A stretch of 64,000 nt of DNA from an uncultured Oleiphilus sp. (GTDB taxonomy: Bacteria; Pseudomonadota; Gammaproteobacteria; Pseudomonadales; Oleiphilaceae), in NCBI GenBank assembly GCA_913020045.1, contig CAJWBE010000002.1, positions 1 to 64,000 on the forward strand, read 5' to 3'. Numbering within the stretch: the stretch's first letter is position 1; every line of letters starts with the position of its first letter. Of the stretch, positions 48,330 through 57,077 are shown in pieces. A model generated the notes under the pieces. It was not told the origin of the DNA. It worked only from the letters and a program-made list of their open reading frames with translations, and ran no database searches. The position numbers and the translations under genes are program-made.

Positions 48330-49205
48330 TTATGCCGCACAAAACTCGGCCTTAACGGCATCAATAAATACACGGTGCTTCGCGGGCATGTATTGGTAGT
48401 TCTGGTAGACCAAGAAGATAGGTTGTTTTGGCGTCGGAATACTGGGAGTAATATCGATAAGAGTACCGTTGTCTAAATCGCTCTGGACCATGTGTCTAAA
48501 ACAGAGCGTAGCGCTGAACCCAAGCTTAGCTAATTCTAGAAATGTCATCAGCCCAATGCCTTTGTGTAGCCGCTGGAATTTACTCCAGTCCATGTCAGGG
48601 GCCAGTGGTTTCAATAGTTTGGCTAGGTCCATATTACTCGGTGTGATCAGGGGCATTGTTAGCAGTTCTGGCAGCGTATTGGGGTGTCCGAACTGTGCGA
48701 TGAATGCTGGTGTCGCAACGAATAAAGGCTCGATATCGAAAAGGTGTATGGCAACGAGCGACGAGTCTTCCAGTGGCCCCTGCCGAAATGCAAAATCGAA
48801 TTTTTCTTCAATCAAATTCCGACGTTCGACCGATACGTTGATGTCGAAAACAATCTTAGGATATTGATGGGTGAACGCAGCCAGAAACGGTGTAACAGGA
48901 GAGGTCGAGAGTGCATTAGGCCACGTTAGTCGCAGTAACCCTCCAGGCTCGCCAGAAAACTCTTTCAGCTCGTTCTCAGTGTCATCTATTCGTCTTGCGA
49001 TATCGCATGAGCGCTCGTAATAGATTTGACCCGCATCCGTTATTTTAAGTACGCGAGTCGTTCTATCGAATAACTGTACGCCAAGCTTTTGTTCGAGTTG
49101 GGCGATCTGTTTACTGATCGCTGAAGGCGTTTTATGAAGCTGTTTTGCCGCGGCAGAAAAACTGCCTGATTGAACGACTGTGACAAAGGTAATGTGGGTA
49201 TTCAT
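48330..49205 (-). CDS. LysR-family transcriptional regulator
   Basis: A 291-residue LTTR of the large DsdC/AaeR-like group. The HTH is at residues 14-42 (GSFSAAAKQLHKTPSAISKQ, IAQLEQKLGVQLFDRTTR). The effector domain contains RLTWPNALSTSPVTPFLAAF and FRQGPLEDSSLVA, as in regulators of aromatic or drug-efflux genes. The neighbour on the 3' side is convergent, and no divergent gene lies within 300 bases, so its target is not evident from position. Confidence 0.92.
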   Translation of the reverse strand: MNTHITFVTVVQSGSFSAAAKQLHKTPSAISKQIAQLEQKLGVQLFDRTTRVLKITDAGQIYYERSCDIARRIDDTENELKEFSGEPGGLLRLTWPNALSTSPVTPFLAAFTHQYPKIVFDINVSVERRNLIEEKFDFAFRQGPLEDSSLVAIHLFDIEPLFVATPAFIAQFGHPNTLPELLTMPLITPSNMDLAKLLKPLAPDMDWSKFQRLHKGIGLMTFLELAKLGFSATLCFRHMVQSDLDNGTLIDITPSIPTPKQPIFLVYQNYQYMPAKHRVFIDAVKAEFCAA

Positions 49206-49476: not shown

Positions 49477-49504
49477 AAGCTCTCGCATAGCAATACGAGA
49501 GCTT
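49477..49504 (-). terminator. Hairpin after metF, probable operon terminator
   Basis: AAGCTCTCG (49477-49485) pairs with CGAGAGCTT (49496-49504), a perfect 9-base stem with a 10-base loop, about 41 bases past the metF stop. On the minus strand the stem is followed by AATTTATG, a poor T-run, so termination may be inefficient or of another kind. Confidence 0.5.
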
Positions 49505-49544: not shown

Positions 49545-50417
49545 TTAAAAAGTAATTTTTTCTTTATCGCTAAGTCCAAGGTTGTCCCATATTTTAAGGG
49601 TAGGGACAGATTGGTTCATCGTATAAAAATGAATACCAGGCACTCCCGCATCGATGAGTTTTTCACACATCCGTGTTACGACCTCTTCACCAAACTTAGC
49701 AATACTGTCGCTGTCGTCACCGTAGGCTTCAAGTTGTTTCTTGATCCAACGCGGTACTTCGGCACCACACATGTCGCTAAAACGAACAAGATTGCTGTAA
49801 TTAGTGATCGGCATAATACCCGGAACGATTGGAATATTAATACCCATTGCTTCGACGCGGTCGATGAAATAAAAGTAGGAGTCAGCGTTGAAAAAGTACT
49901 GAGTGATCGCGCTGTTGGCTCCGGCATCAACTTTTTTCTTGAAGTTGATTAGGTCTGCTTCTGCACTGGCGGCCTGAGGGTGAAACTCAGGATACGCTGC
50001 GACTTCTAAATTGAAATAGTCACCGCTGTGCTCACGGATAAACGATACGAGTTCATTGGCATACTTAAGCTCACCCGCGTCGCCACCCATGCCAGATGGT
50101 AAGTCTCCTCGTAAAGCAACGATACGAGAAACGCCATTCTCTTTATAAAGGTCTAGCAACTCGGTAATGGTTTGCTTGGTCGATCCGACGCAAGATAGGT
50201 GTGGTGCGGTGGCTATTCCTTGGTCTTGAAAGTTGAGTACGGTGTTGATCGTACGCTCTTGGGTAGAACCTCCGGCACCATAGGTCACCGAAAAAAAGTC
50301 GGGCTTTCGTCTTGCTAATTCATCACGCACGCCTTGCAGCTTGGTTTGCCCTTCAGGTGTTTTTGGCGGGAAAAATTCAAAACTAAAGCGTCGCTTGAAT
50401 TGTTTTTGGCTTTGCAT
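49545..50417 (-). CDS. metF: Methylenetetrahydrofolate reductase
   Basis: A 290-residue FAD enzyme reducing 5,10-methylene-THF to 5-methyl-THF, the methyl donor for methionine synthesis. It starts QFKRRFSFEFFPPKTPEGQ; VTYGAGGSTQERT, ALRGDLPSG and ANSAITQYFFNADSYFYFID are family blocks. ATG 50417 has GAGG 6 bases upstream; ATG 50438 would add seven residues. It is the last gene of sahR-metK-ahcY-metF, so the whole SAM/methionine cycle except methionine synthase is encoded together. Confidence 0.96.
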   Translation of the reverse strand: MQSQKQFKRRFSFEFFPPKTPEGQTKLQGVRDELARRKPDFFSVTYGAGGSTQERTINTVLNFQDQGIATAPHLSCVGSTKQTITELLDLYKENGVSRIVALRGDLPSGMGGDAGELKYANELVSFIREHSGDYFNLEVAAYPEFHPQAASAEADLINFKKKVDAGANSAITQYFFNADSYFYFIDRVEAMGINIPIVPGIMPITNYSNLVRFSDMCGAEVPRWIKKQLEAYGDDSDSIAKFGEEVVTRMCEKLIDAGVPGIHFYTMNQSVPTLKIWDNLGLSDKEKITF

Positions 50418-50450
50418 GTATAACCTCGTGGTTTGCATACCTGTAAAAGG

Positions 50451-50499: not shown

Positions 50500-51879
50500 T
50501 TAGTACTTATAAGACTCTGGCTTGAATGGGCCTTGCGCAGGTACCTTGATGTAGTCAGCTTGCTCGACCGTCATCTTGGTAATTACGCCACCGAATCCTT
50601 CTACCATATCTTGCGCCACTTCTTCGTCTAGCTTCTTAGGGAGCACTTTAACGTACAGGCTATCTTTCTTCTCGCTTTCCATTAGGTCTGCGAATTTACG
50701 CTCGTAAAGATAGATCTGCGCCAATACTTGGTTAGCAAAAGAGCCATCCATGATGCGTGATGGGTGACCCGTTGCGTTGCCCAAGTTTACTAAGCGTCCT
50801 TCTGACAACAGAATCAAGTGGTCGTTAGTTTCTTTGTTGCGGTAGATCTTGTGGACTTGCGGTTTAACTTCATCCCATTCCCAGTTTTCGCGCATGTAGG
50901 CAGTGTTGATTTCGCTGTCAAAGTGACCGATATTGCAGACAACTGCGCCGTTCTTAACGGTTTGCAACATGTTTGCATCACAAACGTCTACATTGCCCGT
51001 TGTCGTTACGATCAAGTCGGTTGTTCCCAGAACTGCGGTATTAATGCAGTCAACTTTACCGGTGTTGATACCGTCGTTGTATGGGGAAACGACTTCAAAG
51101 CCGTCCATGCATGCTTGCATTGCGCATATTGGATCAATTTCCGTTACTTTTACGATCATACCTTCTTGGCGTAGCGATGCGGCTGAACCTTTACCTACGT
51201 CGCCATAACCAATCACCAAAGCTTTCTTACCTGATAGCAAGTGATCGGTTCCGCGTTTGATCGCGTCGTTCAAGCTATGTCGGCAACCGTACTTGTTGTC
51301 ATTCTTTGACTTGGTGACGGAGTCGTTGACGTTGATCGCAGGAACCAAAAGCTCGCCCTGTTCGATCATTTCTAATAAGCGGTGAACGCCGGTTGTCGTC
51401 TCTTCTGAAATACCGTGAATCTTGTTTAGCATTTCTGGGTACTTAGAGTGACACATTTCGGTGAGGTCGCCGCCATCATCCAAAATCATGTTCGCGTCCC
51501 AAACCTCTGAGCCGTCTTTTTCAGTGAGAATTGTTTGCTCGATACACCACAGAAACTCTTCTTCAGTTTCGCCTTTCCAAGCAAATACTGGGATGTTTGC
51601 AGCGGCGATAGCAGCAGCTGCATGGTCTTGTGTTGAGAAAATGTTACATGAAGACCAGCGTACTTCAGCTCCCAGATCAATCAATGTTTCGATTAGAACA
51701 GCGGTTTGGATTGTCATGTGGATACAACCCATAATTCTTGCGTCTGCTAGCGGTTGGCTGGCTTTGTACTTACGTCGTAGTGCCATCAATGCCGGCATTT
51801 CGCCTTCGGCAATTTCAATTTCTTTACGGCCCCATTCGGCCAAACTCATATCTGCTACTTTATAATCGGTAAAGCTCAT
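50500..51879 (-). CDS. ahcY: S-adenosylhomocysteine hydrolase
   Basis: A 459-residue NAD-dependent enzyme splitting SAH into adenosine and homocysteine, relieving product inhibition of methyltransferases. The substrate domain has [20 protein letters not shown] and [20 protein letters not shown]; the NAD domain has [17 protein letters not shown]; the C-terminus ends [10 protein letters not shown], the tail that completes the neighbouring active site. The 30-40-residue insert typical of proteobacterial and plant forms is present near residues 145-175. It lies 116 bases after metK with a structured leader. Confidence 0.97.
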
Positions 51880-51995: not shown

Positions 51996-53207
51996 CTAAA
52001 CGCCAGCGGCCGCTTTAAGGGCATCGACTTTGTCAGTTCGTTCCCAAGTGAAGGCAGTAAATGTCTTAGACTTTTTCTCGCCATTTTCTTCATAGTGGTA
52101 AGTGACTTCTTTAGGCTCGCGCCCAAAGTGACCATATGCCGCCGTGATTTGGTACATCGGGTTAAGCAGCTCTAGTTGCGTTTGAATTGCATACGGGCGC
52201 AAATCAAAGACTTCTAGAATTATTTTCGCTAGTTCCCGATCCGAGACTTTTCCTGTTCCAAACGAATTGATTGAAACAGACGTCGGGTTGGCAACACCGA
52301 TGGCGTAAGACACTTGAATTTCACAGCGGTCTGCGAGACCCGCAGCGACGATGTTTTTAGCAACATAACGGCCATAATAGGCAGCAGAGCGGTCAACTTT
52401 CGATGGGTCCTTACCTGAGAATGCACCGCCACCATGACGAGCCATACCACCATAGGTATCAACAATGATCTTACGACCAGTAAGACCCGCATCACCTACC
52501 GGGCCGCCAATTACAAAATTGCCGGTTGGGTTGATGTGGTAAAGAGTTCCCTCGTGCAGCCAATCAGCAGGAAATACCGGTTTGATAATGTTTTCGAGAA
52601 CGGCTTCGCGCAGATCTTCTAACGAAATAGATGGGTCGTGCTGTGTAGAAAGAACAACGGCATCGACCTTTGGCGAATCGCCTTCGTAGTTAATCGTTAC
52701 TTGAGATTTTGCGTCGGGGCGCAACCATGGCAGGGTGCCATTTTTTCGCAGCTCAGCTTGGCGCTCAACAAGAAGATGTGAGTAGTAAACTGGCGCAGGC
52801 ATTAGCGTAGGAGTTTCGTTGGTCGCGTAACCAAACATTAGGCCTTGGTCTCCAGCGCCTTGATCTTCTGGCTTAGCACGATCAACACCTTGGTTGATAT
52901 CGACAGACTGTTTACCAATGCCGTTCAGTACTGCACAGGTCTCGCCATCAAAGCCGACATCTGAGCTGTTGTAGCCAATACCGGTAATCACGTCACGCAC
53001 GATGTCTTCCAAATCGACATAACAAGAGGTGGTTACTTCACCGGCTACCACAGCCATCCCAGTTTTTACTAAAGTTTCTACGGCAACACGCGCCCATGGG
53101 TCGCGTGAAATAATCGCGTCTAAAACGGCATCAGATATCTGGTCGGCGACCTTGTCTGGATGGCCTTCTGAAACCGACTCAGAAGTAAATATGCTGTATT
53201 CGCTCAT
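51996..53207 (-). CDS. metK: S-adenosylmethionine synthetase
   Basis: A 403-residue enzyme making SAM from methionine and ATP. Signature blocks are [19 protein letters not shown] (residues 11-29), [30 protein letters not shown] and the P-loop-like [15 protein letters not shown]. Length is slightly above the Escherichia enzyme (384), due to short inserts seen in other gammaproteobacteria. It follows the regulator by 37 bases and precedes ahcY, so SAM synthesis and SAH recycling share one control point. Confidence 0.97.
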
Positions 53208-53244: not shown

Positions 53245-54300
53245 TTATTGTGTTGCTTTGGAAAGCAGTGGTTTTACGAATTTTCGTAGTTGTATTTGAA
53301 AGCCATTTCGTAATCCAATGAATACGCTTTCGTCTTCTTCAAAGCCGACGCGTTGCGCCCAGCTAGTTAATTCTTGAGGCTCAAACCCCAGCCATAAGTC
53401 TCCACAGCGATCTTTCGCCCAATCTTGGTGGTGATGCGATAGGTCACAAACCACCATTACGCCGCCGTTAGAAAGGAAAGAATAGCAGTCTTCGAATATC
53501 TTCGACGGCGCAGGCACGTGATGCAGGACCATATTCATGATGACTGCATCGACAACAGTCTCTTGCGCGCGAAATGTGGAGGTGTCACCCACAACAAACT
53601 CAATGTTCGATAAGCCCTCAGACCGGGTGAACTTCTGAGCTTTTTGTAACAGCGTTTCAGACGTATCGAGAGCGATAACCTGTTTGTGATTAAGGCTAAG
53701 TGGCTTGAGGAATTGTCCCTCGCCAGACCCTAGTTCAAGAATTACGTTGTCTCTGCCTAGTCCTGATTTTTCAAGTAGCTCATAGCTTGCCTCGGCATAC
53801 TGACTGTAATCGCAGATCATTTCTTGCTGTTCACTAAAACGCTCAGAGCTTTTGTCGAAGAATGCTTGCGATTGGACAGCGCGCTGTTCTCTAATTTTTT
53901 CGATACGCTGGTCGAGCTCAGCCGGCAGTGGAGCGCTGTCCACTAACAAAAATAATTGTGAGGTGGTGAGTTGATTGGCCACTTCAATTTGGTTGAAGGG
54001 GCGTCGATAAAAAATGGCGTTACCTTCGCGCTGCGCTTCTACGAGGCCCGCGTTACTCAGCACCTTTAAGTGGTGGCTCATGCCAGATTGTTTTGTTTCG
54101 AACAGCTGCGCTAACTCTAGAACACCAAAGGTGTCACTTTTCAGTACTTGCAGAATTTGCAGTCGTAAGGGGTCGCCGCACGCTTTAAACCGCTGACTCA
54201 AATTTTGAATATCAACATTTGCGCAGGGGTGAGCGTCGACCGCTTCTATTGAAGAGGGGGCGATGCTGGAAGCAATATTGATGGGTGACGTATTAGGCAT
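53245..54300 (-). CDS. sahR: ArsR-type regulator fused to SAM-dependent methyltransferase domain (SahR-like)
   Basis: A 351-residue fusion. Residues about 30-100 are an ArsR winged helix (SQRFKACGDPLRLQILQVLK, LAQLFETKQSGMSHHLKVLS). Residues about 180-300 are a class I methyltransferase fold with the SAM/SAH loop VILELGSGEGQFL and IALDTSETLLQKA. Heading metK-ahcY-metF, it matches SahR, the SAH-sensing regulator of methionine genes known in proteobacteria; the methyltransferase fold is then the ligand sensor, though a real methyltransferase cannot be excluded. ATG 54300 has no ribosome site. A -10-like TATACT ends 7 bases before it, suggesting a leaderless message. Confidence 0.88.
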   Translation of the reverse strand: MPNTSPINIASSIAPSSIEAVDAHPCANVDIQNLSQRFKACGDPLRLQILQVLKSDTFGVLELAQLFETKQSGMSHHLKVLSNAGLVEAQREGNAIFYRRPFNQIEVANQLTTSQLFLLVDSAPLPAELDQRIEKIREQRAVQSQAFFDKSSERFSEQQEMICDYSQYAEASYELLEKSGLGRDNVILELGSGEGQFLKPLSLNHKQVIALDTSETLLQKAQKFTRSEGLSNIEFVVGDTSTFRAQETVVDAVIMNMVLHHVPAPSKIFEDCYSFLSNGGVMVVCDLSHHHQDWAKDRCGDLWLGFEPQELTSWAQRVGFEEDESVFIGLRNGFQIQLRKFVKPLLSKATQ

Positions 54301-54307
54301 GAATCGA

Positions 54308-54335
54308 AGTATATCGAAAAACTTTGATATAGCAA
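54308..54335 (-). promoter_or_regulatory. Candidate sahR promoter giving a leaderless transcript
   Basis: On the minus strand TTGCTA (plus 54330-54335), a 16-base spacer and TATACT (plus 54308-54313) form a plausible sigma-70 promoter. Seven bases separate TATACT from the ATG, so transcription would start at or next to the first codon. The absence of a Shine-Dalgarno sequence agrees. The promoter lies wholly within the operator repeats. Confidence 0.5.
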
Positions 54336-54361
54336 TTCAATATTGAAAAACTTTGATATAG
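54310..54361. promoter_or_regulatory. Tandem operator repeats upstream of sahR-metK-ahcY-metF
   Basis: GAAAAACTTTGATATAG occurs twice in direct orientation (54316-54332 and 54345-54361), 29 bases apart, close to three helical turns. Each copy sits in a dyad: TATATC-N10-GATATA at 54310-54331 (perfect six-base arms) and a similar, less perfect one at 54339-54360. ArsR regulators bind such AT-rich dyads over their own promoters. It is the only copy of this repeat seen around the operon. Confidence 0.65.
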
Positions 54362-54413
54362 TTTTGTGACAGGAGTTTACCGTTAGAAAAAAGGGCAGAA
54401 AAAGAAGGCTCTC

Positions 54414-57077
54414 TTAGCTAGAAAGCTGGGCGACTTGTTGCTCAGCCAGCCAGGTTTCGAACTTTTCTTCTGGGAGTGGTTTTTGAATATGGTAGCCCTG
54501 AGCAATATCGCAGCCCATCTCTTTTAAGGCAATCAGTGTTTGTTGGTCTTCAATACCTTCAGCGACAGTCCGGAGGTCGAACTGTTTCGCAATGGCAAGC
54601 GATGTTTCAACAATCGCATAATCTTCTTTATTGGTAAGTACGTCGGTGACAAAAGAGCGGTCTATCTTGAGCTCATGCACCGGCAGTTTTTTAAGATAAC
54701 TAAGTGACGAATAACCAGTCCCGAAGTCATCTAGCGCCATCTTGACGCCAAATCTCCCGAGAGTTTCGAGGGTTTGGATTGCTTGATTCATGTCCTCGAT
54801 GACTGCGCTCTCGATCACCTCCAAAATGAGTTTACGAGCGGGAAAAGATTCTTTTTGAATGGACTCTATGACTGACTCGCAAAAGAGCTCGTTTAATAGG
54901 TTTCTCACCGAAACGTTGACGGCAACAGATAGGTCATTGCCGTTGGCGCGAAGCCGGTTGCAGAACGTTAATGCGGAATGAACTACCCAGTCGGTGAGTG
55001 CTTGAATAATGCCTGTACTCTCCGCGATATCAATGAAGTGGTCAGGGCTAAGAAGTCCATGTTTTGGGTGTTGCCAGCGCACGAGAGCTTCCATGCTAAC
55101 GACTTGCCCAGTTTGTAAATCAATTTTTGGTTGGTAATGAAGGACGAGTTCATCGTTTTCAATTGCCGTAATGAGTTCTCCCATTAGGGAAAGCCGACTC
55201 TCGCTGTATTTGTCAATATTGGTGTCGTAGCAGACCAACGGAAGTTTGGACCACTTGGCTGCTCGCACGGCAATCATCGCTTTACGGATTAGCCCTTCTG
55301 CGGAGGTATCGTCAGATGGCCAGGTTGTGAGTCCAATATGACCGCCGAGATCCAGCGCCATCTCATTGAAATGGAAAGGTTGGGCTAGTTTCTTAAGAAG
55401 CTTTTGTACGGACTTTTGCTCGTCTGTATCAATATCGCAACGGAGGATGAACGCTAAATAGACGCCTTCCATGATGCCAATAAACGCATCGGCTTCACCG
55501 CTAAAGTTTAACTTTTGAATACCTTTCCATTCGGATAGCTCGGCATCTAAGTTCTGTACGGCTTCAATTAGAATTTGGTCACCGGCTTGATGGCCGAGGG
55601 TAAAATTGATGTCATGGAAATTATTCAGGTGGACGGCGCATACCAGAAGCTTGTCGTTAACTTTGTTTGCAGTTTGCGTAATTTCTCGAAGTCGTTGTAC
55701 GCACATCAAGCGGTTAGGGGCGCTGGTTAATTGGTCGTGGTAGCTTTGATAGATTAGTTCTCGTTCGGTATCTTGTTGTTTTTCCGCAGCATTTAAAGAG
55801 GCTTGAACAGCGGCAATCTTTTCAGCTTTTTCAGAGTTGATACGGTCGGCTAGGGCGAGTGATAACAAAATGGTTTCGGCGGTTGTACCGATTAGTGATG
55901 CGTACTGCGTAATAAATACAGTGGGTAGTACATCGAATTGCATCAATGCGCGAGTGATGAATCCCGAGATTAAGACTCCCCATGCAAGCGAAAATATATA
56001 GGCTCTTCGGTCTCCTCTGATTACACCGTAGATACCGGTAGCGATGATAACCAAACCGATAGGCATGGGAATGAATACCGCAATGACGGTCGACAAATGT
56101 TGAGACAGTATCCAAGGGGAAATGAGGAAGGCAACGCAACAAGCTGCGAGAATCTTTAGAGTGCGGTCAATTCCGGCGCCATAATTTTGTGTGTTAAGAA
56201 AGCTGCGTGTAAAAAGTATTCCTGTTAATAACGTGAGCGGTGATGAGGTTGCAAAGGCAATATTGGCGAGAGTCGGTGAATTTGGCCACAAATGTTGAAA
56301 AGCTGCTCCGGAAATTACTAGGTTCGTTACCGTAACCGAAGAAATGTAGAGAATATAAAAAATATAGGCGCTGTCTCGAACTGAAAGATAGATAAAAAAG
56401 TTGTACAGAATCATGACAAGCATGACTCCATAAAATGCACCCATCCAATACTGTTTCGTGGCGTTATGTTCGACGTAGCTTTGGTGGGACCAAATTGCGA
56501 GCGGAAATTGAAGGGATGTTGTGGTTTTAACTCTAAAATAGAAAGTATGAACTTCCGGACCCTCAAGGGCGATTGGAAATACATAGCTATTGAGATGCAT
56601 GTCTCTCTGATCAAACGGGTAGAGATCGCCCACGACCTTCTGGCTGAAGGATCCACTGTTTACGCTATTGGGAATATGAACTTCAACATGATCGAGAAAA
56701 GGATAGTCTAGCTCTAGATACCACTCACTGCTTGAACCATGGGCTAATTGGGGGTCTCTAAGTTGTAAGCGGAACCAATAACCGCCGTCAACAAAGCCCA
56801 GATTGGGTTCTGCGTCGGCAATGCTTTCGAATTGATTCTGGCGAGCGGGCTGCAGTACTTCCTCTAAGGTGAGATCGTGTTGTTCAGCGAGTAGCGTAAG
56901 GTATTGGCCGAGTTGAGCATGCTCTGTGTTTAAGTTGACGTCAAAAGTCGTAAACGAAGAGGATGCGTTACTGACGGAGCTGGCGTTTAAGATTAAAAAC
57001 ATAAGTGGCCACAGACTTAGCCGGACTTTTGAAAACTGTAACAACACTGGTGCCTCAGATTTAGCGATCCTTCGCAT
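54414..57077 (-). CDS. 7TMR-DISM sensor with degenerate GGDEF and intact EAL domain
   Basis: An 887-residue inner-membrane signalling protein. It has an uncleaved or cleaved signal helix (LSLWPLMFLILNASSVS), a periplasmic 7TMR-DISM sensor domain (about 45-190), seven membrane helices (about 205-400, beginning MGAFYGVMLVMILYNFFIYL), a short coiled coil, a GGDEF-like domain near 440-600 and an EAL domain near 620-875. The GGDEF signature is lost (the position reads MEGVYLAF), so no cyclase activity is expected. The EAL part keeps MEALVRWQHP and LDDFGTGYSSLSYLKKLPV, so it should hydrolyse c-di-GMP. Members of the DISM family sense carbohydrate-like or unknown ligands. Confidence 0.92.
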   Translation of the reverse strand: MRRIAKSEAPVLLQFSKVRLSLWPLMFLILNASSVSNASSSFTTFDVNLNTEHAQLGQYLTLLAEQHDLTLEEVLQPARQNQFESIADAEPNLGFVDGGYWFRLQLRDPQLAHGSSSEWYLELDYPFLDHVEVHIPNSVNSGSFSQKVVGDLYPFDQRDMHLNSYVFPIALEGPEVHTFYFRVKTTTSLQFPLAIWSHQSYVEHNATKQYWMGAFYGVMLVMILYNFFIYLSVRDSAYIFYILYISSVTVTNLVISGAAFQHLWPNSPTLANIAFATSSPLTLLTGILFTRSFLNTQNYGAGIDRTLKILAACCVAFLISPWILSQHLSTVIAVFIPMPIGLVIIATGIYGVIRGDRRAYIFSLAWGVLISGFITRALMQFDVLPTVFITQYASLIGTTAETILLSLALADRINSEKAEKIAAVQASLNAAEKQQDTERELIYQSYHDQLTSAPNRLMCVQRLREITQTANKVNDKLLVCAVHLNNFHDINFTLGHQAGDQILIEAVQNLDAELSEWKGIQKLNFSGEADAFIGIMEGVYLAFILRCDIDTDEQKSVQKLLKKLAQPFHFNEMALDLGGHIGLTTWPSDDTSAEGLIRKAMIAVRAAKWSKLPLVCYDTNIDKYSESRLSLMGELITAIENDELVLHYQPKIDLQTGQVVSMEALVRWQHPKHGLLSPDHFIDIAESTGIIQALTDWVVHSALTFCNRLRANGNDLSVAVNVSVRNLLNELFCESVIESIQKESFPARKLILEVIESAVIEDMNQAIQTLETLGRFGVKMALDDFGTGYSSLSYLKKLPVHELKIDRSFVTDVLTNKEDYAIVETSLAIAKQFDLRTVAEGIEDQQTLIALKEMGCDIAQGYHIQKPLPEEKFETWLAEQQVAQLSS

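Follow-up and report, generated by a model that had tools for sequence, protein, structure and literature searches.

The window, by which we mean the whole stretch of 64,000 nucleotides analyzed here, carries on its minus strand the gene for a SahR-type regulator followed by three genes of the methyl cycle. The features on which the analysis draws are as follows.

54408..54426, minus strand: weak terminator-like hairpin overlapping the 3' end of a GGDEF/EAL gene; count of such hairpins at chance
54340..54359, minus strand: distal SahR operator, ATATCAAAGTTTTTCAATAT, 5' of the -35 hexamer; matches the single operator of many relatives
54330..54335, minus strand: -35 hexamer TTGCTA; last base falls in the proximal operator's left arm
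54311..54330, minus strand: proximal SahR operator, ATATCAAAGTTTTTCGATAT, inside the promoter spacer
54308..54313, minus strand: -10 hexamer TATACT; its initial three bases are shared with the proximal operator
54298..54300, minus strand: ATG start codon, predicted to be leaderless and to coincide with the transcription start
53245..54300, minus strand: sahR, ArsR-family helix-turn-helix (HTH) plus SAM-methyltransferase-type domain, 351 amino acids (aa)
51996..53207, minus strand: metK, S-adenosylmethionine synthetase, 37 nt past sahR; 4-base Shine-Dalgarno match
50500..51879, minus strand: ahcY, S-adenosylhomocysteine hydrolase; 4-base Shine-Dalgarno match
49545..50438, minus strand: metF, methylenetetrahydrofolate reductase
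49477..49504, minus strand: terminator-like hairpin of 12 pairs, 3' of metF; hairpin count overall at chance

In SahR proteins, an ArsR-type HTH at the N terminus is joined to a SAM-methyltransferase-like domain. The sahR product exceeded the Pfam cut-offs for HTH_5, HTH_20, and Methyltransf_11, Methyltransf_25, and Methyltransf_31, and a sequence search with it against solved structures returned partial ArsR-type and methyltransferase matches only. The domain make-up bears out the assignment of a SahR-type regulator, and the gene order and identities bear out its place at the head of metK-ahcY-metF. As expected of SahR, the gene clusters with metK, ahcY, and metF, and an operator lies upstream of metH in the same genome (see below). 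Scanned in full against Rfam, the window had no match at the gathering score, and a riboswitch in the operon was rejected. Terminator-like hairpins numbered 8 against an expected 6.7, which is at chance. Directly upstream of sahR on the same strand, positions 54414 to 57077 encode a GGDEF-EAL protein of 887 aa, and read-through past the hairpin at 54408..54426 could yield a second, leadered sahR transcript.

Promoter and operators in the window

The predicted sahR promoter consists of TTGCTA, a 16-bp spacer, and TATACT, followed after 7 nt by the ATG at 54300 on the minus strand, which is the layout originally described; no Shine-Dalgarno sequence is visible before this ATG, again as claimed. 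A longer SahR starting upstream was rejected, since the ATG at 54300 is the first ATG, GTG, or TTG after an in-frame stop codon; the upstream protein that would have contradicted the original prediction is thus excluded for these three start codons. Between positions 49000 and 55000 we found 6 promoter-like sites where 7.5 were expected, so that the match in the window, taken alone, is at chance. The significance of the promoter position is supplied by the sequences of relatives and not by the window alone.

Two direct repeats, at 54311-54332 and 54340-54361, are 22 bp long with one mismatch, and both contain the palindrome ATATC-N10-GATAT, the distal copy with one mismatch in an arm. The original prediction had spoken of two direct 17-base repeats set in dyads, three helical turns apart and covering the promoter entirely. 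The dyads and an exact run of 17 bp are indeed present, within a full repeat of 22 bp; the spacing is 29 bp, or 2.76 turns at 10.5 bp per turn, and not three turns. The operators do overlap the promoter, but the hexamers are touched at their inner ends only. The proximal 20-bp operator takes up the whole spacer and extends into both hexamers, by the final base of the -35 and the first three of the -10, and the remaining hexamer bases lie in the linker or outside the proximal repeat. Overall, the observation is thereby partly confirmed and its interpretation, taken with the comparisons below, partly supported. A separate match to nine bases of the distal operator region, CAATATTGA, occurs at 54273-54281 in the sequence encoding the N-terminal tail of SahR and may be due to chance.

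Promoter and start codon across relatives

We compared the upstream regions of sahR in a first set of 85 distinct loci, drawn from 82 of 97 genomes (the window's own included) and supplemented with three loci from named contigs (L009 to L011). In the remaining 15 genomes, matches were absent, weak, or partial. Two loci (L007 and L008) were dropped because their first 300 nt were the same as those of L032 and L030, and 17 distant relatives (L012 to L028), 16 of which were viewed, were dropped from the counts. Loci in the window's genus (g1) agree exactly with named Oleiphilus MAG contigs over the first 300 nt compared, which makes an Oleiphilus-like genome probable. Two rules were applied. The strict -10 rule required TA...T with at least 4 of 6 matches and the full promoter rule TTG-N16-18-TAnnnT; in both, the -10 had to end 6 to 9 nt ahead of an in-frame ATG. 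Because the 6- to 9-nt distance window was picked after the first-set loci had been viewed, only the second set described below is held out.

A strict -10 hexamer stood 6 to 9 nt from an in-frame ATG in 75 of the 85 first-set loci, at distances of 6 nt (7 loci), 7 nt (31 loci), 8 nt (33 loci), and 9 nt (4 loci). A distance of 6 to 9 nt is the usual length of a discriminator. When only the farthest-upstream ATG was considered, 67/83 loci fitted. Over 200 dinucleotide shuffles of the upstream 60 nt, a mean of 7.4 and a maximum of 14 fitted, and none of the other 4-nt bins held more than 11. Before the control starts in the same loci, the hexamer was found at this distance in 0/85 cases for metK, 1/54 for ahcY, and 0/25 for metF, or 1/164 together. 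The full promoter rule was satisfied by 78/85 loci with any in-frame ATG and by 70/83 with the first ATG, compared with 0 to 2 loci in other distance bins. Grouped by taxonomy, a majority of loci had the strict -10 in 33/42 genus units and 19/28 family units, and 22/28 family units had at least one locus that fitted the full promoter; in these counts, L009 to L011 each stand as their own genus and family, and one unit is doubled, as L009 matches an f2 genome.

A Shine-Dalgarno match of at least 4 bases preceded sahR in just 3/83 loci, compared with 83/85 for metK, and sahR starts thus show the lack of a Shine-Dalgarno sequence that is expected of leaderless mRNAs. Matches were found in 46/54 loci for ahcY and in just 11/25 for metF, so that this measure is uneven among the downstream genes. 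The gene immediately 3' of sahR was metK in 85/85 first-set loci.

For the held-out set, a second draw from the order comprised 145 genomes, of which 106 had a match, 77 of these being new. After exclusion of two partial matches (G390 and G443), it gave 76 loci from 75 new genomes, of which 75 were usable (the upstream sequence of L188 was too short) and 74 remained once L118, a repeat of first-set locus L009, was removed. The unchanged full promoter rule fitted 58/75 of these loci, or 57/74 minus L118. With the first ATG, 53/71 fitted (L118 included), and other bins held 0 to 4. Both sets together therefore carry the full promoter in 135/159 sahR loci (78/85 plus 57/74), all from the window's own order except the three named relatives. 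One second-set genome (G396) has two sahR-like genes (L122 and L158), the second of which lacks a good operator within 200 nt. Thus, the comparison of relatives strongly supports, at the level of sequence, the predicted leaderless sahR message; the layout itself, its conservation, and the absence of ribosome sites before sahR are direct observations.

The rule failed in 7/85 loci of the first set and 17/74 of the second. In 5 of the 7 first-set failures, an apparent leader of 31 to 105 nt precedes the first ATG. The 17 second-set failures fell in families f13 (4/4), f212 (3/4), f214 (2/2), f8 (2/2), and f18 (2/3), with single failures in f29 (of 1), f209 (of 4), f24 (of 2), and f6 (of 4); by eye, several were near misses, for instance with the -10 shifted to 10 or 11 nt or with TATAAA replacing TAnnnT. 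One locus from the window's own genus (L030, genome G001) has kept both operators and TTGCTA-16-TATACT and has no ATG after the promoter. Its start has probably moved downstream, to a GTG or a later ATG, and the locus would then be a naturally occurring version of the window's promoter with a leader. In 3/3 loci of family f8 (L088, L133, and L140), the frame lacks an ATG ahead of the SahR core, and by eye an AAGGAG-like site accompanies a GTG in L088; a leaderless start seems to have given way to a leadered one in this family. Farther afield, the 16 distant relatives viewed without scoring, mostly of Desulfobacula type, had neither the tail nor an evident ATG-adjacent promoter, and in a class-level draw with at most 7 candidates scored per genome, 2/274 genomes matched at E <= 1e-30 (the window's own, G000, and one from the same order).

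Between the ATG and the HTH core lies a tail of 12 to 46 codons across the 75 strict loci, with the distance from promoter to ATG fixed. Because the tail varies while this distance stays constant, the promoter is suggested to fix the start of sahR. In the window, residues 1 to 26 of SahR are predicted to be disordered, as pLDDT in one structure model was below 50 for all of them except residue 6. Pairwise differences in the tail within g12, another genus of the family (14 loci), numbered 390/176/708 at codon positions 1/2/3, a pattern that shows codon constraint. Up to the core, the sole other in-frame ATG, GTG, or TTG in the window is a TTG in the first helix, and the ATG at 54300 is the only credible candidate start before the core.

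Operators among relatives and in the genome

With at most one arm mismatch allowed, the palindrome was present within 200 nt upstream of sahR in 83/85 first-set loci, against an expectation of 0.016 per locus computed from the rest of the same loci, and in 69/75 second-set loci. The first-set consensus is CTATATCAAAA-TTTTGATATAG. Among the 75 strict loci, the operator center lay 42 to 45 bp upstream of the -10 end in 61, 31 to 32 bp upstream in 11, and 22 bp upstream in 1; two had no operator, and 4 of the 61, all from the window's genus, had a further operator at 13 bp. In the 31- to 32-bp class, the operator's right arm doubles as the -35 hexamer (TTGATA, 11/11), and in the window's genus (g1) the extra operator makes up the start of the -10. 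The 31- to 32-bp class was the commonest in the second set (39 sites), followed by 43 to 44 bp (13 sites, L118 included), and 5/58 rule-fitting loci had no operator at the stringency used.

A pair of operators 29 to 30 bp apart was present in 5/5 genomes of g1 and was found only there in both sets; none of the other 80 first-set loci had two operators within 200 nt. The idea that two operators per se are confined to g1 was rejected, as three second-set loci (L182, L184, and L191) also have several. In L182 (family f210), two operators lie 18 bp apart, one of them over a TATTAT -10 hexamer six nt before the ATG, and, to judge from the sequence, an operator on the -10 arose separately there. L184 and L191 (f13) have two or three operators farther apart, three at 55-bp steps in L184, and in L086 operator-like palindromes recur every 24 bp, where the outer two carry two arm mismatches. 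For L125 and L145 a second palindrome is also listed, but in both it matches weakly and overlaps the first. Operator centers at -44, -32, -22, and -13 from the -10 end resemble a helical ladder, which was considered and set aside, because the phase bias, about 0.05 by hand, is suggestive only; second-set sites at -26 (overlapping another) and -177 (a poor match) have no bearing on it.

The repeat was also sought near other methionine genes, and a third good operator was found in the window's own genome at G000:C2:178427-178446 (3428-3447 in L059). The gene that follows was confirmed as methionine synthase, metH. The 20-bp operator thus occurs twice upstream of sahR and once upstream of metH, as expected for SahR. 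By eye, the metH palindrome lies about 44 bp before a TATACT, which itself stands about 54 nt before the ATG. Unlike sahR, metH would thus have a leader, and not every SahR target shares the leaderless layout. A degenerate genome search (up to 3 mismatches) recognized no further palindromes with an A/T-rich core beyond those of sahR and metH; one position considered, C24:41184, lies inside a 561-aa reading frame. Matches to ATATC-N10-GATAT with 0 or 1 mismatch were too numerous to be taken as operators (114 per strand; reversed pattern, 46). A further SahR target in this genome may have been missed.

Proposed control of the operon

The SahR regulon of Proteobacteria was reportedly also treated by Novichkov et al. 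in 2014. In published work, it comprises sahR, ahcY, metK, metF, and metH and is marked by a 20-bp palindrome (Leyn et al. 2014, PMC4239095). The operon in the window and the metH site fit this core regulon, sahR itself included, whereas the window's genus differs in having two operators, one of them within the promoter spacer; the passages of that paper drawn on here discuss neither leaderless starts nor the placement of operators relative to promoters. A response to S-adenosylhomocysteine (SAH) has been published for Desulfovibrio SahR (PMC4239095, PMC8877191), of which PA0547 of Pseudomonas aeruginosa has been described as an ortholog (PMC7950407), and autoregulation is supported for Ensifer sahR (PMC8877191). 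A precedent for a leaderless repressor gene heading its operon is acuR-acuI-dddL of Rhodobacter sphaeroides, in which 5' RACE placed the transcription start at the AUG and acuR-lacZ gave about 7.5% of the activity of acuI-lacZ (PMC3017554). There, too, the repressor comes first in its own operon, ribosome sites are present downstream and absent at the regulator, an inverted-repeat operator overlaps the promoter, the inducer is a metabolite of the pathway, and the layout is predicted in other taxa. AcuR differs in being a TetR-family protein responding to acrylate, whereas SahR is of the ArsR family, and the start and low translation were measured for acuR but are predicted for sahR. The short form of Shigella VirF is likewise a regulator made from a leaderless message (PMC5101355); that message encodes a second, shorter protein, whereas the leaderless start of sahR is the predicted main start and recurs in relatives. 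Accordingly, SahR, its palindrome, the SAH response, autoregulation, and a leaderless repressor at the head of an operon are already known. Leaderless transcripts have been called unusual in Gram-negative bacteria (PMC3017554), and kasugamycin reportedly spares them (PMC5230787). Our literature search, which covered few subscription papers, found no report of a leaderless sahR, which is weak evidence of novelty, and no mapped 5' ends of Pseudomonas sahR.

We propose that a sigma-70-type promoter starts sahR transcription at the A of the ATG, so that the message would have neither a 5' leader nor a ribosome site. SahR would bind at least one ATATC-N10-GATAT palindrome overlapping or abutting the promoter and would block RNA polymerase, and SAH, as published for the Desulfovibrio protein, would release SahR and so raise expression of sahR-metK-ahcY-metF. 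By analogy with acuR, a leaderless sahR combined with ribosome sites at metK and ahcY would give little regulator and more enzyme from each message. In the window's genus, a second operator would have been placed within the promoter spacer. We consider this model as a whole, with a leaderless sahR, repression by SahR that SAH lifts, and a regulator scarce relative to the enzymes, to be probably correct.

Three other accounts of the locus were weighed against it. Most sahR message might come from read-through of the GGDEF/EAL gene or from a farther promoter, with a leader devoid of a ribosome site, the leaderless promoter being minor. That gene ends 113 nt before sahR on the same strand, with a weak hairpin between, but the unit of -35, -10, and ATG is conserved with its operators over family units and no promoter peak appears at other distances from the ATG (up to about 90 nt), which makes this account unlikely. 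We hold it very improbable that the true start lies inside the frame at the conserved core and that the apparent tail is a 5' leader. The poor conservation and predicted disorder of the tail would suit such a start, as would the distant Desulfobacula-type relatives, which begin at the core; against it stand the lone TTG available in the window, the codon constraint apparent in the g12 tail, and the tie between ATG and promoter in most loci despite a tail of varying length.

The remaining account concerns the sign of regulation, namely, that SahR activates in relatives with a single operator and that the window's genus turned to repression through its second operator. Simple occlusion is less obvious in the many relatives whose operator sits immediately 5' of the -35: the class with the center 42 to 45 bp before the -10 end, to which 61/75 strict loci belong (four in the window's genus), would place it some 50 bp ahead of the start, outside the -35. 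A dimer whose footprint exceeds 20 bp would nevertheless extend to the -35; SahR has been described as an SAH-dependent regulator and predicted repressor, and the Ensifer sahR mutant had the highest sahR expression (PMC8877191). We therefore regard activation as rather improbable and retain repression by SahR as the preferred reading.

Leaderless messages are initiated by whole 70S ribosomes with initiator formyl-methionyl-tRNA. Because of this, SahR synthesis could follow methionine and one-carbon supply directly, so that the leaderless start would be part of the sensor, a speculation to which we give very little credence. If it were true, a drop in methionine would lead to less new SahR and the operon would open independently of SAH, which would also explain why a leaderless start is so widely retained in a regulator of the methyl cycle.

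On the proposed model, a core metabolic operon would open with a leaderless start, and the locus offers an easily tested, concrete case of a regulator kept scarce by the manner in which its message begins, as well as a case of a promoter and an operator sharing bases. The variable tail suggests, in addition, that a promoter, rather than protein function, can set the N terminus of a protein. The recurrence of the arrangement in most related loci suggests that the regulator heading this operon is translated weakly by design.
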